The position numbers were made by a program, and so were the translations under genes. Below are positions 2,974 to 26,564 of a stretch of 64,000 nucleotides of DNA, one piece after another (position 1 is the first letter of the stretch; each line of letters starts with the position of its first letter). The notes beneath the pieces are model-generated. The model saw only the letters and a program-made list of their open reading frames with translations, was not told where the DNA came from and did not search any database. Source of the stretch: Clostridiales bacterium. GTDB lineage: Bacteria > Bacillota > Clostridia > Oscillospirales > Acutalibacteraceae. The stretch spans positions 124,001-188,000 of the forward strand of contig JAILOG010000001.1 of NCBI GenBank assembly GCA_024690965.1, given 5' to 3'.

Positions 2974-5900
2974 TTAAAACTTGTCAATAAGTTTGGCTAT
3001 AAATTTTTGTATTTGCGTCACGTCAAGCATATTAATTGTGCTGTCGCCGTTTACATCAGCGTTTTCGCTTTGCTTGGCTGTTAACTCAACAAGCTTTGCA
3101 ATATGCTTTTGTATTAGCGTGACATCAGACATTTTAATTTCGCCGTCTAAATCCGCGTCGCCCTTTATGACAGTATCACTGTCGGTGGGCTTATCGCTGT
3201 CGGTAGGTTTGTCGGTGTCTGTTACCGTTTTATCATCGGTATCAGGATTTACATCTGCGCTGTTTGTTAAAATATCGCTGCACTTCACCCTTATGATTTC
3301 GTTTACGGTGAATCCCTGCGCAATATAGCTGTCTATTTCATCAAAATCGGCACTGCACTGTTCAAGGTCGTAATAGCCTATTGCCTGATAAAATCCCTCT
3401 ACGGTGAGGTTAAGATCATCAAGCAGCTTTTTGTCAAACGATATTATAAGCGAGGCCGTGTCATCCTCTATAAGTATTACGCGGTAATCAAGTCCCAACG
3501 CATTGTTGGCTATAAGCCACGCATCTATGTTTTTCGCACCTTTTTTAAGATGCACTTTGTCGCCTAATTCAAAGTCGTAATGAACAATCGGTATGTCGCC
3601 GTCCGGGTCTTGTTCGGGCTTTTCGTGTGTAAGCGAGCTTATAGGCGCGTAGAAATAAAGAGAATACGGCTTGCCCGACTCAATTGCTGCTTTATATTTA
3701 TCGTAGTCTACTTCGTCGCTTTCTCTGTTGCAACCTATGACCTGCAAAAATCCGTCACAGTCAACACCAAGCTGTTTAAGCAAATCTGGACTTACCTCCA
3801 GCTTAAGCATAGCCACCTCTTCGTTTAAAGAAGCGATTTTATAATCAAGCACCATACCACTGTACCCGACCTCATCGTTTTCGCCGAGTTGACTGCCGTA
3901 TTTTAGATATACCGTATCACCAACCGAGAAAATCTCTTTATCTGTTTCGGTAGCTATATCATTGTCGGAGGGCATTTGTGCGGTATCGGTTTCAGCTGAC
4001 GAATCTGTGTCTATCGTATAGAATTCGGTATCTGTCAATAAACTTGTATCGGTAGTTGTGTCTGTTGTTGTATCGGTTTCTGTTTCTGTTGTTATATCCG
4101 TTGCCGTATCTGTTGCTGTATCCGATAAGGTATCTGTTGTTGTGTCTGTGGAAGTATCCTGCTCGGTGTCCGATAATGCTTCCGTATCGGTTATTGGAGG
4201 CGGTGCGTAATGCTCAAGGCAGGCGGTACTGATATCAAATATAAATTCACGTTTATTTCCTGAGATGTAATCGTAATAATCATCCGTATTATCCCGTGTT
4301 ATTCCAAAGCACGCCAAAAAGTCGGATATCGGCGTTTTTATGCTGCCGTATTCCAACCGTATCTTAAGCGTGGCAAAATGTCCCTGTACAGATACTGTCT
4401 CATAGTTAAGATCAAGTGCGCTGCTGCCTATTTTGTAAGCGTTTGTAAGTCTTGCGTCAGCCGCGAGCGTTACCGTGTCCCCCGCTTTAAAATCAGTTTC
4501 CCGCTGTGTGTGAACGTAGCCTTCAACTCCCCTGTAATCATAAACATTGTACACTTTTTCGCCTGCAACGTTTCTTACCGCCTGAACGGTATAATAATAC
4601 AGGCTGTCTTTAGGCGCGTTGTAAAGAATACATTCGCTACCCGTATATTCGGTATTCACAGTTGTCCATACGCTTCCGGTTGTACTGCGCATAAGAATAC
4701 GGTAAGCGTCGGCGTATTTTGATTTTGTCCATTTTATCTTAAGCCCCTGTTCACACTCGGTACAGGAAGTAATATGAGTTTCCCCCATCAGACAGCAATA
4801 TGCCACCACGGCTTCTGTGCCGTAAGATGTATGGCCGTTATACGATGAATATGGAACCACCTTATAATAATAGAGCGAATCGGTATCTACGTTTTTGTCT
4901 GTAAACCCACAGGAAAGCCCTGTTGGTACAGTCTGATACAACGTCCATTTATTTTCATTAAGTAAATGCCTGTAAACAAGATATCCGTTTGCGTTTGATA
5001 CGGTGTTCCATTTCAGTGTAATATCGCTCTCATTGCATACAGCGCTTAATCCAAGCGCTTGATTGCTGTCCACCATAAGATAAGAAGAAATTGAATATCC
5101 TATTGTGTCGTCTTTTCCGTCTTTTATTGTAACGGGATTATTAAGCGTGCCGCCCGCAAGCGTTTTTCCCGATTTACCCGCTGTTACTGTCATGCCTTTT
5201 ACTGTTACCGGCTTACCACTTGAAGAATCGCAGTATATTTTTGCGCCCCACGAATAATCGGTATACTCTTTACTGCCGAAAAGGCTTATATCGTCAAGCT
5301 TAAAATAAAACGTGGCTGTCTCGGGCTGTGATAAAGATGAAGATGAAACGCCGCTGAATGAGTATCCGTTATACGGCCTTTTGTCCGCGCCGTCAAACAA
5401 AACAAGCTTTTCGTAATCTCTTATAATACGCTTATTGTATATTTTCATTGAAACATCGTTCCTGTCGTACGCGCTCACCGTTACACCAAGAACCAAGTCG
5501 GGCATACCGACAATTATATCGCTGTCCCAATAAGTAAAATAGAATCTTTCAAATGATACGCTTCTAGATAACTGTGTTACGGGGCTCGCAGTTACAATTA
5601 TTTTGCTTTCAAAATTATCGCCCTGCGAAGTTGCGGCAATGCCCGGCAAAGACAAAGAACAGCAAACAGACGAATTCACGATATTGATAGTCGTAAGCTT
5701 TGTCAAACGCCCCTGAACAGAAACTTTATCTCCCGTATTCAAAAACGCGTAATCATTGTGATTTGCCGCCATTAACCAATATGTGCCTTTGTATTTTGAA
5801 TCATAACACGATGAATTGAATCCGCTTAAGTTAACAACATCCTCATACGGAAGAACGCACCATTCGGATAATTCGTCGGCGATGTTTGTAAGCTCTGTAT

Positions 5901-7197
5901 AAGATTCTGATGCAAAAGTCGTTTTGTATGATATAAACGGTCCAAGTGAAGAATCAAGTCCCGATACTCTTCCTATGGTATATTTGCGGTAAGTTTTACC
6001 GTTTATTGTTTTGCTGCCCACATCCGTAAACTGCCAGTTTGATGATTCGGCAAAATAGTTCGCGGAATATACCTTAAGGCTACCGTCAACGGTCAAATTC
6101 ATACCGCTTTTATACAAAGCAGCGTTATTAAGCGCGGAGTATTGCGATGACAGATTGACAGAATCGTACATAACCCAGCAATACCCCTGGTTTTTCCAGC
6201 TTTTGCCCCAGGAATTCGCCATTAAAAACGCGCCCTTCATTGTAACGCCGCCGAATACAGCCTCAATATTATCATCGTAGCCGATAATTGATACTGCGTG
6301 TCCGCCAACGGCATTTCCCTGAGCGGCTATCAATACGTAATCGCCTTTTTTGCCTATATCGCCGCTTTTGCTTGCCGTTGAATAAAACCATCTGTCGGAT
6401 TGTCCGCTTGCTATAACAACGTTGCCCGATAATATGGCATTTTTAATTTTATTAAGTATATTTTTCCCATCCGACGATGTAGTTAATTTGTGATCGTAGT
6501 CCTCCATATCGTACATATCGTAAGCGTCGGTACTTTTAAGGCGGTATTTAAGAGCGTCATACATTCCGTCCAAATCCCAGGATACCGTCTTTTTATTCAA
6601 GTTACCAGTGTGCCCGGAACCCAAAGCGCTGTCCTCAAATTTGCATTTGTCATATGTAACGGCGCCGTTTTCCGCTAAAATCCCGTAAACATTACTTGTT
6701 TTACCGCCTACAAAATTATATGTCCATTTAGGAGAAAAAGTATTTGAGTCATTCTTTGAGGGATCCCATGAATCGTCTATATGATATTTTTCAATATAGC
6801 GTGATACAGCATTGGAAAACTGCATATATGTAACTGACTCTGAAGCGCACGAGCCGATATTTCCCTGGTCGGTGATAGGAGGAAGATGCTTGTTGCCCCT
6901 CAAAGAATATGAAGAAGGCAACGCTTCTGCCTTTATTTTTGAAGAAGAGCCTTTTCTTATATGCGAGCCGCCCTCGGAATTATATATCTCCGCCGACTCT
7001 TTTATACTCTGCGCAAGCGTATCTTTTGCGGGATCATACTGTCGGCTGATCATTTGCGTGTTGCAAACGCCTCTTTGAGAGCTTTCGTTGCTGCCCTTAT
7101 CGTGCGAATCATACGCGGCTGCACCGCCCGGAAGGATTACTCCCAAAACGATAATAACACACAATATTATTGAAAAAAACTTATACTTGTTTCTCAT
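2974..7197 (-). CDS. Secreted papain-like (C1) cysteine protease with Fn3 domains, three repeated modules and a dockerin
   Basis: 1,407 residues. Signal peptide 1-28. Papain-like domain about 93-365 with oxyanion Gln111, catalytic Cys117 (GSCASES), His300 (GHAVSIIGYDD) and Asn328 (ANSWGKSW), so it should be active. Residues 370-700 form beta-rich domains resembling the lectin-like region often found after clostridial C1 domains. Two Fn3-like domains at about 714-800 and 808-897. A module of about 100 residues occurs three times (901-995, 1089-1189, 1208-1310), the first two separated by a Thr/Asp linker (1003-1088). Dockerin at 1345-1402 with two Ca loops (DADLDGEIKMSD, DVNGDSTINMLD). It would be exported and docked on a cohesin. 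The ribosome site before ATG 7197 is weak. Confidence 0.9.
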   Translation of the reverse strand: MRNKYKFFSIILCVIIVLGVILPGGAAAYDSHDKGSNESSQRGVCNTQMISRQYDPAKDTLAQSIKESAEIYNSEGGSHIRKGSSSKIKAEALPSSYSLRGNKHLPPITDQGNIGSCASESVTYMQFSNAVSRYIEKYHIDDSWDPSKNDSNTFSPKWTYNFVGGKTSNVYGILAENGAVTYDKCKFEDSALGSGHTGNLNKKTVSWDLDGMYDALKYRLKSTDAYDMYDMEDYDHKLTTSSDGKNILNKIKNAILSGNVVIASGQSDRWFYSTASKSGDIGKKGDYVLIAAQGNAVGGHAVSIIGYDDNIEAVFGGVTMKGAFLMANSWGKSWKNQGYCWVMYDSVNLSSQYSALNNAALYKSGMNLTVDGSLKVYSANYFAESSNWQFTDVGSKTINGKTYRKYTIGRVSGLDSSLGPFISYKTTFASESYTELTNIADELSEWCVLPYEDVVNLSGFNSSCYDSKYKGTYWLMAANHNDYAFLNTGDKVSVQGRLTKLTTINIVNSSVCCSLSLPGIAATSQGDNFESKIIVTASPVTQLSRSVSFERFYFTYWDSDIIVGMPDLVLGVTVSAYDRNDVSMKIYNKRIIRDYEKLVLFDGADKRPYNGYSFSGVSSSSLSQPETATFYFKLDDISLFGSKEYTDYSWGAKIYCDSSSGKPVTVKGMTVTAGKSGKTLAGGTLNNPVTIKDGKDDTIGYSISSYLMVDSNQALGLSAVCNESDITLKWNTVSNANGYLVYRHLLNENKWTLYQTVPTGLSCGFTDKNVDTDSLYYYKVVPYSSYNGHTSYGTEAVVAYCCLMGETHITSCTECEQGLKIKWTKSKYADAYRILMRSTTGSVWTTVNTEYTGSECILYNAPKDSLYYYTVQAVRNVAGEKVYNVYDYRGVEGYVHTQRETDFKAGDTVTLAADARLTNAYKIGSSALDLNYETVSVQGHFATLKIRLEYGSIKTPISDFLACFGITRDNTDDYYDYISGNKREFIFDISTACLEHYAPPPITDTEALSDTEQDTSTDTTTDTLSDTATDTATDITTETETDTTTDTTTDTSLLTDTEFYTIDTDSSAETDTAQMPSDNDIATETDKEIFSVGDTVYLKYGSQLGENDEVGYSGMVLDYKIASLNEEVAMLKLEVSPDLLKQLGVDCDGFLQVIGCNRESDEVDYDKYKAAIESGKPYSLYFYAPISSLTHEKPEQDPDGDIPIVHYDFELGDKVHLKKGAKNIDAWLIANNALGLDYRVILIEDDTASLIISFDKKLLDDLNLTVEGFYQAIGYYDLEQCSADFDEIDSYIAQGFTVNEIIRVKCSDILTNSADVNPDTDDKTVTDTDKPTDSDKPTDSDTVIKGDADLDGEIKMSDVTLIQKHIAKLVELTAKQSENADVNGDSTINMLDVTQIQKFIAKLIDKF

Positions 7198-11595: not shown

Positions 11596-12609
11596 ATGAA
11601 AAAACGAATTGTATCATTGATGTGCGCTGTATTGGTCTTTCTGCCTATGCTGTTATCTGCAAACGCGCTTGAAAGCAAAGATGACTTTTCAGATCTGTTT
11701 TTCGTGCTTATGAAAGATTACACAGATGTAAACGAACTTCACGAAGGTCTCAGCCCGGAAACGTACAATTTACTTGGGACGACAACAAACGGGTTTCACA
11801 TAGCATACTGTGAATATTATCTTGAAGATGTTTTTGTCACCTGTTACAGTCCCAAAGGCGGCGATAATACTTATATTGCAGGCTCAAACTTTATTGAGAC
11901 GTCCGACTATGTCATAGTAGGCGGTCCTCATAAAGACACACCGTCTCGATTCGCCGTTTATTGTTTTAACGAAAACAAATGCTTCACCCTTGAGGACGCT
12001 GTAAAGGAAAAAGATATACCTTTCGGCGAAGTGGCGGACATCGTGAACAAACACGGCTGCGCGTATATATACGATAAGAGCACCGATATAACTGAAGCGT
12101 TAGATAAATCAGATATTTTCGCAAGCGGCTTACTTGATGCAAGGTTTTGCCAATATACCCACAGTAACGAAAGCTATTGCAGCATTTACGGTAAATATGA
12201 CAAATACTATCTTTTCTACGGATCTAACGGCACTGCTTCATGTGAATTTACATCGGAAATTATAGAAGACTTTGTTGTCATAGCCCCTGAAATAGAATCT
12301 CCTTATGATTTAGGTAAATACGTTTTTGACGGAGATAATATTTACACGCTTAAAGAGGCGTCTGAAAAAAGCCTATTCAAAATGAATGATGTCAAAGATT
12401 TAATCCCCAACATATATTTATGGGGGGATGTAAATGAAGACAATACAGTTGATATGGAAGATGTTGTATATATGCAGAAGGTTATGGCGAGACTGATAAT
12501 TTATCCTACAGACTACTTCTACTATGTAGCCAACGCAGACAGCAATTACTGTTTTGATATGTACGATATCGTGCTTGTTCAGCGCAAGATAGCAAAACTG
12601 TGCAAATAA
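11596..12609 (+). CDS. Small secreted dockerin protein with two copies of an unnamed ~90-residue module
   Basis: 337 residues. Signal peptide 1-24 (ends SANA). Two related modules follow, about 70-155 and 190-272: each begins with a YC..Y strand pair and ends in a motif of the form FxxDxxxYTLKEAxExxxFxxxDVxDLI (first copy CFTLEDAVKEKDIPFGEVADI). The same module occurs at 55380-55973 and probably at residues 310-385 of the 24879-26399 protein. C-terminal dockerin 275-335 with loops DVNEDNTVDMED and DSNYCFDMYD, the second less regular. AAGGAGG precedes ATG 11596. Function unknown; export and cohesin docking are predicted. Confidence 0.8.
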   Translation: MKKRIVSLMCAVLVFLPMLLSANALESKDDFSDLFFVLMKDYTDVNELHEGLSPETYNLLGTTTNGFHIAYCEYYLEDVFVTCYSPKGGDNTYIAGSNFIETSDYVIVGGPHKDTPSRFAVYCFNENKCFTLEDAVKEKDIPFGEVADIVNKHGCAYIYDKSTDITEALDKSDIFASGLLDARFCQYTHSNESYCSIYGKYDKYYLFYGSNGTASCEFTSEIIEDFVVIAPEIESPYDLGKYVFDGDNIYTLKEASEKSLFKMNDVKDLIPNIYLWGDVNEDNTVDMEDVVYMQKVMARLIIYPTDYFYYVANADSNYCFDMYDIVLVQRKIAKLCK

Positions 12610-24786: not shown

Positions 24787-24800
24787 ATAAACAAAGCTTT

Positions 24801-24838
24801 GCCCCGCACGGTGTTATTACCGCGCGGGGCGTTTTTGT
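24801..24838 (+). terminator. Terminator after the nitroreductase gene
   Basis: GCCCCGCACGG (24801-24811) pairs with CCGCGCGGGGC (24820-24830) with one A/C mismatch, followed by GTTTTTGTG. Confidence 0.85.
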
Positions 24839-24878: not shown

Positions 24879-26399
24879 TCAAACAGGTTTTGCTTCCATA
24901 AGATTAGGTTCCGCACTTTTAACAATATCCAGTTTTATAAGCTCTTCTATTGTGTCAAGTACATTTTGCTTGCTGTGCTCAGAGAGTGTAAGCATAAGAA
25001 TTTGGGTGTATTTGCTCTCGTCACGAAGTTTTTTATCCTCGGAAATATTGGGATTATTTCTCTGCTCCAAAAGCCTCACTCTTGTAGCGTCAGTCAAGTC
25101 AGTTACCTCTATTATACCGTCTATTCCGAATTGAGAAGGTTCATATACGGCAAGCATTCTACTTGCTTCATTTGTAAGGCACACAAGCACCGTGTTATCC
25201 TCAAATTCATTGTCTAATGTATATGTAGCTCTCCAATACATATGCAGTTTAAATGCCAATTCTCTAAATATTTCATCTGAAATCAGCTTTTCTTTGTACG
25301 CGTCTTCAATTGAAACATACCTGTCCCCTATAAGCAAGTACTTTTCCTGCCCGGGTGATGAACAGTAATATATATAATTACCGATCACTTTTTTTACATT
25401 GATTGCAGGTGTAGCGGAACCGTAATAATCGCAACGAACAATCATTGCACCGTTACTCAGCGTATCGTAAAATTTAGCGTCAAACAATTTATCGAAGTTC
25501 TTAAGTAACGCTTCTTTATCGCTGTCCGATATTGGGTTAGATTTTTCATACGCTGTTTCTATCTTCTTTATAGTTTCGCTGTCTGTATTGCGTGGCTCAA
25601 GAAAAGCATGACTATCTGACTCTTTTCCGCATTTACCGCTGTCTGACAACTTTGCAATATACCTCTGTAGCGCAACAACATCTTCAAGATCCAGAACCAG
25701 ACCCTCTCCCGTAATGTCTCCGCAAGTACGGCATACGGTGCAATCATAGATCTGTGCTATATGCTTTTGAAGCGCGACAACATCTTCCAAATTGATTTTT
25801 CCGTCATGGTTGGTGTCACCGAAACACGGGCGATCCGGTATTACGTCGTTCGCATACGCTTTATAATGGTGAATATACATAGGTTGAGCTACCATAATAT
25901 AATCTAATTTTTCCAACTCTTTTACTACTCTGAGAACGTTTTCTTTGCTCTTTTCACAGAGAGTCAATTCCAAAATCTGATGAAATTTATTAATATTAAA
26001 TTCGTTGCCTTCTTCAAATGTACCTTTTCTTATTATGCTTACATAGTATTGAGTCAAATCTTTTACTTCTTTTATGCCGCTGACAGAAAAGCTGTCTTTT
26101 GTGTATATTTTAGCTTTTATGCTTACATCATGCATGAGCACAATTCCCACTTTATCGTCCGCAAACTCATCTTCTAAAGTGGCGTTACAATACTCTTTTT
26201 GGTCGGGTTCTATCGTTTCGTCCATATCAAACAATTCGATAAATTCATCCGAGAAAACATTCCCCCCTACAACCGGGATTTGTTCATCTTCCGAATTGGC
26301 GTGCGCGTGCAGCTCAGGCTTTGATATCCCAACTGTGGCGCACAAAGCAACACTGACAATCAAACTTGCCGCCGATATCAATAATTTCTTAATTTTCAT
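24879..26399 (-). CDS. Secreted protein with two subtilisin-propeptide-like (I9-type) domains flanking an internal dockerin
   Basis: 506 residues. Signal peptide 1-32. Two clearly related domains lie at about 74-180 and 393-500. Each contains LxxEFxDxxVxxxL, a GIxEVxDLT segment and a closing helix plus strand: QILELTLCEKSKENVLRVV then ELEKLDYIMVAQPMY, against QILMLTLSEHSKQNVLDTI then ELIKLDIVKSAEPNL. The ending with A(E/Q)P(N/M) is the hallmark of peptidase S8 propeptides. No protease domain follows. A Cys-rich dockerin sits between them (193-255; loops DTNHDGKINLED and DITGEGLVLDLED). Residues 310-385 resemble the YTLKEA module. It could be a docked protease inhibitor or foldase; this is inference. 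AGAAGGG precedes ATG 26399. Confidence 0.75.
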   Translation of the reverse strand: MKIKKLLISAASLIVSVALCATVGISKPELHAHANSEDEQIPVVGGNVFSDEFIELFDMDETIEPDQKEYCNATLEDEFADDKVGIVLMHDVSIKAKIYTKDSFSVSGIKEVKDLTQYYVSIIRKGTFEEGNEFNINKFHQILELTLCEKSKENVLRVVKELEKLDYIMVAQPMYIHHYKAYANDVIPDRPCFGDTNHDGKINLEDVVALQKHIAQIYDCTVCRTCGDITGEGLVLDLEDVVALQRYIAKLSDSGKCGKESDSHAFLEPRNTDSETIKKIETAYEKSNPISDSDKEALLKNFDKLFDAKFYDTLSNGAMIVRCDYYGSATPAINVKKVIGNYIYYCSSPGQEKYLLIGDRYVSIEDAYKEKLISDEIFRELAFKLHMYWRATYTLDNEFEDNTVLVCLTNEASRMLAVYEPSQFGIDGIIEVTDLTDATRVRLLEQRNNPNISEDKKLRDESKYTQILMLTLSEHSKQNVLDTIEELIKLDIVKSAEPNLMEAKPV

Positions 26400-26516: not shown

Positions 26517-26564
26517 ATTTTACCATAAAAACATATGCTGTCAAGCGTTTGGCACAAATTGCAC
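26517..26564 (-). promoter_or_regulatory. Promoter with upstream box (propeptide-like dockerin gene)
   Basis: Minus strand: -35 TTGACA (26544-26539), 16-bp spacer, -10 TAAAAT (26522-26517). Two bp upstream of the -35, the plus strand reads GTTTGGCACAAATTGCAC (26547-26564). The same box at the same distance precedes the LRR dockerin gene at 46034. Confidence 0.75.

Follow-up and report, generated by a model that had tools for sequence, protein, structure and literature searches.

A two-headed, dockerin-bearing homologue of S8 subtilase propeptides in a Clostridiales bacterium, probably an inhibitor acting in trans

Introduction

The principle of inhibiting a subtilase by a propeptide that stands apart from any protease is already known. 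The best comparison is SUB1-ProM of Plasmodium, a stand-alone propeptide with a measured inhibition constant (Ki) of about 5.7 nM, and the other stand-alone propeptide inhibitors named in the same work are eukaryotic and small as well (PMC6993865). The I9 inhibitors listed in MEROPS (Pleurotus proteinase A inhibitor 1, yeast proteinase B inhibitor and Arabidopsis SPI-1), together with TgMIC5, are likewise propeptide-like proteins without a protease, and their action in trans was either shown or predicted. Here, we describe a gene from a Clostridiales bacterium, found in a stretch of 64,000 nucleotides (nt) of contig JAILOG010000001.1 (positions 124,001 to 188,000, assembly GCA_024690965.1), which is referred to below as the window. 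The gene encodes a protein of 506 amino acids (aa) with two S8-propeptide-like domains, termed head1 and head2, that are separated by a dockerin and a further, unnamed domain. What is new is the bacterial, dockerin-borne form of the presumed inhibitor.

The protein of the window differs from the described systems in several respects. SUB1-ProM has one head and no dockerin, comes from a eukaryotic parasite and has had its inhibition measured, whereas the window protein is known from its sequence. In comparison with the MEROPS I9 inhibitors it is bacterial and duplicated, contains a dockerin and a mid domain, and is not reached by the I9 model of Pfam. The idea of a protease inhibitor borne by a dockerin is shared with the cellulosomal serpins (PinA of C. 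thermocellum and SIGN-Doc-SERPIN of R. flavefaciens) and with cyspin, but these belong to other inhibitor families; a serpin is a suicide substrate and cyspin acts on cysteine proteases, while scans of the window protein against Pfam and NCBIfam gave no match to a serpin or a chagasin-like domain. PinA targets subtilisin-like proteases, according to the title of a paper cited in PMC5301203. A full-text literature search, outside which most subscription papers lay, found no paper that joins dockerin, propeptide and subtilisin.

Homology of the heads to S8 propeptides

The gene lies at 24879-26399 on the minus strand, exactly where a preliminary description of this DNA had placed it, and its product is arranged as follows.

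24879..26399, minus strand: whole gene, 506 aa, in the order signal, head1, dockerin, mid domain, head2 (open reading frame and translation)
26292..26399, minus strand: signal-peptide-like N-terminus, residues 1-36 (approximate), with MKIKK, a hydrophobic stretch and then polar residues, as read from the sequence
25857..26204, minus strand: head1, residues 66-181, S8-propeptide-like, with a degenerate capping pair Q172/M174 (homology to the C11 subtilase propeptide)
25641..25826, minus strand: Cys-rich dockerin, residues 192-253 (Dockerin_1 at 17.1 bits and matches to solved dockerins)
25236..25514, minus strand: unnamed mid domain of about 95 residues, residues 296-388 (homology to the dockerin-mid neighbour of the C11 subtilase; profile search)
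24882..25220, minus strand: head2, residues 394-506, S8-propeptide-like, with an intact capping pair E497/N499 (homology to the C11 subtilase propeptide)

Head1 and head2 share 38.5% identity over 109 residues (E 3e-14). Both also match the propeptide of a complete subtilase encoded on contig C11 of the same genome (G000), head1 with 42% identity over 118 residues (E 6e-18) and head2 with 28% identity (E 2e-8), so that their relatedness is not a matter of chance. The C11 propeptide is a direct homologue of both heads, but it is covalently attached to its protease. Judged by this similarity, both heads are homologues of S8 propeptides. The preliminary description had guessed as much from a strand pattern, quoting two motifs that map to residues 164-175 and 489-500, and the guess proved right, since the heads are homologous to a genuine S8 propeptide of the same genome. 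Its remark that no protease follows the propeptide-like domains also holds: the 506 aa contain no Peptidase_S8 match, the S8 catalytic domain with its Asp-His-Ser triad is absent, and the sole named match in the Pfam and NCBIfam scans is a weak dockerin.

A profile of the head family (alignment A2) was compared with the Fervidolysin_NPro/I9 domains and aligned over 88 columns, the whole domain length (hhalign probability 88.7, P 2.6e-6). Among 21 relatives three match PF22148 (Fervidolysin_NPro) weakly (best 0.031). One distant relative, at G029:C184 near 9038, both exceeds the PF22148 threshold and matches the family profile. The putative membership in the S8 propeptide/I9 family is founded on the homology to propeptides of S8 enzymes, not on Pfam cut-offs or structure, and the heads would be expected to share the ferredoxin-like propeptide fold.

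The C11 subtilase as candidate target

A search of the window's own genome revealed the C11 subtilase (L021:7589-9772), an enzyme of 728 aa with a signal, a propeptide, an S8 domain, repeat domains and a C-terminal dockerin that exceeds the cut-off. Its catalytic domain, at residues 151-455 or thereabouts, scores 140.9 bits (E 6e-34 against thermitase), and it is the only S8 enzyme of this genome with a propeptide of this type. The preliminary description had named the protease at 2974-7197, which is of the papain type, as a possible target; no finding connects the heads with papain-type enzymes, whereas their link to S8 is explicit, and the C11 subtilase is the likelier candidate. The contig has further features around this gene. 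An agr-like locus (L021:3365-9775, counted with the genes that follow it) with a LytTR regulator, a GHKL kinase, AgrB and an AgrD candidate at 6093-6236 stands immediately 5' of the genes for a dockerin-mid protein and for the dockerin subtilase, and an integrase and a CHAP protein come just before it. A further S8 enzyme, whose N-terminal region is of another kind, is followed directly by a mid-dockerin protein (L021:10090-12651).

The window protein is probably a secreted, surface-tethered propeptide inhibitor that acts in trans on S8 subtilases, chiefly on the C11 enzyme, and in all likelihood it would work like a stand-alone I9-type propeptide inhibitor. The homology of the heads, the absent catalytic domain, the family-wide association with S8 genes and purifying selection are observed; the fold, binding, inhibition, co-docking and purpose of the two-headed protein are inferred. 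The central dockerin would hold it in a cell-surface cohesin-dockerin complex, and each head would bind a mature S8 catalytic domain in the way the enzyme's own cleaved propeptide does, with its beta sheet packed against two of the enzyme's helices and its C-terminal tail lying product-like in the active-site cleft. The presumed target, the dockerin-bearing C11 subtilase, could be docked on the same cohesins, and the purpose would be to restrain the protease and thereby spare the surface complex from digestion.

Capping residues and the C-terminal tail

In SUB1-ProM the residues Glu146/Asn148 correspond to Glu69/Asp71 of subtilisin BPN' (PMC6993865). The same Glu-x-Asn capping pair is kept in head2 (Glu497/Asn499), and by this criterion head2, rather than head1 with Gln172/Met174, should be the better inhibitor. 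Despite its degenerate pair, head1 is overall closer than head2 to the C11 propeptide.

The window protein, with the head2 tail MEAKPV, terminates 7 residues past N499, which, as in SUB1-ProM, brings the tail within about a residue of a cut propeptide. Among 15 C-terminal stand-alone heads 12 end 6-9 residues past the capping Asn/Asp (median 7), and in 14 of 15 related S8 proteases the inferred P1 residue, or cut, lies 6-8 residues past the capping residue (median 7). The PND motif served as the guide to the start of the mature enzymes, with thermitase and AK.1 protease as anchors, both of which carry TPND at residues 2-5 of their solved chains. The tail length of the C-terminal heads appears to be what a product-like inhibitor tail needs.

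Recurrence beside S8 genes and selection

Profile searches and reading of loci showed that this propeptide occurs in two kinds of protein, in S8 proteases and in propeptide proteins without a catalytic domain. Stand-alone heads were counted by us in about 17 of the 398 genomes of the window's bacterial family, and they span many genera; in other families of Clostridia nearly every head is attached to an S8 enzyme. Most stand-alone heads carry a dockerin (eight above the cut-off, others weaker or visible by eye). The preliminary description knew of no I9-like tandem with a central dockerin, yet head-dockerin and head-dockerin-head proteins recur, and G162 encodes one of 413 aa with the latter layout (L066:1510-2751).

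Stand-alone heads adjoin S8 genes with the same type of propeptide at distances of 21 nt (G120), 26 nt (G182) and 37 nt (G153), as well as in G105, and they stand beside such S8 genes also in an uncultured Clostridia bacterium and in a termite-gut Treponema, where two tandem small lipoprotein-like proteins, consisting of almost only a head, lie upstream of the S8 gene (L074:1001-1906). In G105 the gene order is dockerin-head, dockerin-mid, S8-dockerin; the window protein looks like a fusion of parts that are neighbours in clusters such as those of G105 and C11. In G153 (contig C16, L057:4262-9225) a BlaI-type repressor (PF03965) is followed by a BlaR1/M56 sensor with a head as its C-terminal outer domain and, 37 nt downstream, by an S8 gene whose propeptide is the closest relative of that head; the row looks like a protease-sensing BlaR1 system. 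Two proteins were observed besides these, one of 861 aa with three propeptide-like segments and neither protease nor dockerin (L116:4898-7483, G362:C1), the other a protein that looks CotH-like by eye and bears a propeptide-like head at its N-terminus (L191:5746-7650, G648:C81).

Similarity between heads and the propeptides of their own genomes was assessed by ranking 30 S8 propeptides against each stand-alone head, in the eight genomes that also encode a propeptide of this type on an S8 enzyme, a fragment of 62 residues in G096 being excluded from the count. The own-genome propeptide ranked first in five of the eight, namely for head1 in the window's genome and in G153, G069, G182 and Treponema, which has P 2e-6 if the genomes are independent, for a ranking that was devised after the data had been seen and by which common descent and co-evolution are not separable. 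For head2 the own-genome propeptide ranks second. A strict one-to-one pairing of heads with neighbouring S8 propeptides was also considered and rejected, as it fails in three of the eight genomes.

The dN/dS ratio (nonsynonymous to synonymous substitution rates) is 0.11 over the 313 codons shared with the sister genome G146, a comparison that excludes head1, which lies past the end of that contig; for head2 it is 0.10. Another genome of the same genus, G016 (99% complete), has no S8 gene and no head, and encodes a dockerin-mid protein (43% identity) that is devoid of heads.

Dockerin, mid domain and tethering

As a candidate type I dockerin, residues 192-253 reach 17.1 bits with Dockerin_1, under the cut-off of 22.9, and match solved dockerins of Ruminococcus bromii and Clostridium thermocellum (9qfa with E 3.8e-5, 1daq and 2mte, to E 1e-3). 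The first calcium loop is canonical and the second has one extra residue. The five cysteines which had been noted around a dockerin between the heads are C192, C220, C223, C226 and C257, the last just past the domain. Overlooked at that time was the mid domain, placed between dockerin and head2, which is not in Pfam, recurs adjoining S8 genes and has many paralogues in the window's genus. The dockerin-mid protein encoded directly upstream of the C11 subtilase gene is 30% identical to window residues 188-388 (E 5e-22). Elsewhere in the window (11596-12609, plus strand) lies the gene for another secreted protein, which has two domains of the mid type and ends in a dockerin-like stretch.

The window's genome contains about 80 dockerin-like matches, and its cohesin proteins, on contigs C18 and C8, have tails that resemble membrane or wall anchors. 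With dockerins on both the inhibitor and the C11 protease, and with putatively anchored cohesins, the two proteins could dock on one surface scaffold.

Weighing of the inhibitor reading and its alternatives

Homology to the C11 propeptide, genomic neighbours in other species, cognate similarity and tail length support the reading of the protein as a probable inhibitor in which stand-alone S8 propeptide domains flank a dockerin. Several points weigh against it. The window heads have no match to PF05922 (I9) or PF22148, missing the curated cut-offs; the family profile, compared by sequence with solved structures, gave chance-level matches only and reached no solved propeptide, and the link to I9/Fervidolysin runs via S8 relatives and profile comparison. 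Head1, with Met at the second capping position and with its tail inside the chain, may be a weak inhibitor, and a C-terminal domain may end soon past its last strand for trivial reasons. The own-genome propeptide ranks only 10, 13 and 14 in G105, G120 and the Clostridia bacterium. The window gene is not adjacent to the C11 protease gene, and G146 keeps the window gene while a lactocepin-like enzyme is the only S8 protease found there, with none of the C11 type (an assembly of 260 contigs, 90% complete).

This last observation is also what would be expected if the inhibitor were aimed at foreign subtilases, be it those of competitors, those brought by mobile elements or those of the host gut, in which case its dockerin would let it shield the surface complex. 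The conserved place of the window gene, beside a nitroreductase gene here and in G146, points the same way when set against the C11 protease, whose gene has those of an integrase and a CHAP protein as neighbours. However, of the 30 propeptides ranked, the one from the same genome comes first for head1 and in four further genomes, and heads often adjoin an S8 gene encoded in the same genome, and we regard a foreign target as unlikely, though deserving of some weight.

Catalysis of folding is a general property of S8 propeptides, and the heads, adjoining S8 genes as they do, might serve such enzymes as intermolecular chaperones instead of lasting inhibitors. Nearly all neighbouring S8 enzymes keep an intact propeptide of their own (one draft record is frame-split), so that a helper is not needed, and fixation to dockerins fits a lasting location better than a transient helper; this makes the chaperone role improbable.

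The head borne by the BlaR1-type sensor in the BlaI-BlaR1-S8 row of G153, together with the likeness of the internal stretch past head1 to a propeptide cleavage region, brings to mind a bait or sensor that an active subtilase cuts, for instance at the head1-dockerin junction, thus releasing or signalling something. Since the window protein has neither a signalling domain nor a membrane anchor, such a role is very unlikely here.

That the gene is a relic, a subtilase gene minus its catalytic domain that is left as a structural spacer or without function, is suggested by the degenerate capping residue of head1 and by AND right after head1, like the PND start of mature S8 enzymes, but it can hardly be reconciled with the intact reading frame and its ribosome site, with recurrence in many genera and, above all, with the dN/dS of 0.11, because of which it was rejected as the main reading.

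Signals around the gene

The ATG start at 26399 is preceded by a ribosome site, AGAAGGG, and a TTG 24 nt upstream is unnecessary as a start. Two further elements flank the gene.

26517..26544, minus strand: promoter-like TTGACA-16-TAAAAT with an extended TG (11 of 12 consensus positions)
24791..24807, minus strand: terminator-like hairpin 3' of the gene (consensus match only)

Together they suggest a single-gene unit, and sites of both kinds are equally frequent in shuffled sequence, which makes them weak evidence.

Concluding remarks

A broader scenario may be put forward tentatively, although it is unlikely as a whole. In gut bacteria of the Ruminococcaceae type, subtilases and stand-alone propeptides acting in trans would co-dock on cohesins as a system of protease control at the surface, and the two-headed protein would clamp two enzymes simultaneously; with the C11 protease placed downstream of an agr quorum-sensing locus and near an integrase, the chromosomal inhibitor of the window's genome would be a resident restraint or immunity factor.

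As to the proposed inhibitor itself, a bacterial family of dockerin-coupled heads beside protease genes would show that enzyme complexes at the cell surface make use of the same solution. This would account for the ability of dockerin-bearing subtilases to sit on one scaffold with vulnerable glycan-degrading enzymes, and dockerin-borne inhibitors of subtilases would then come in two types, this one and the serpins.
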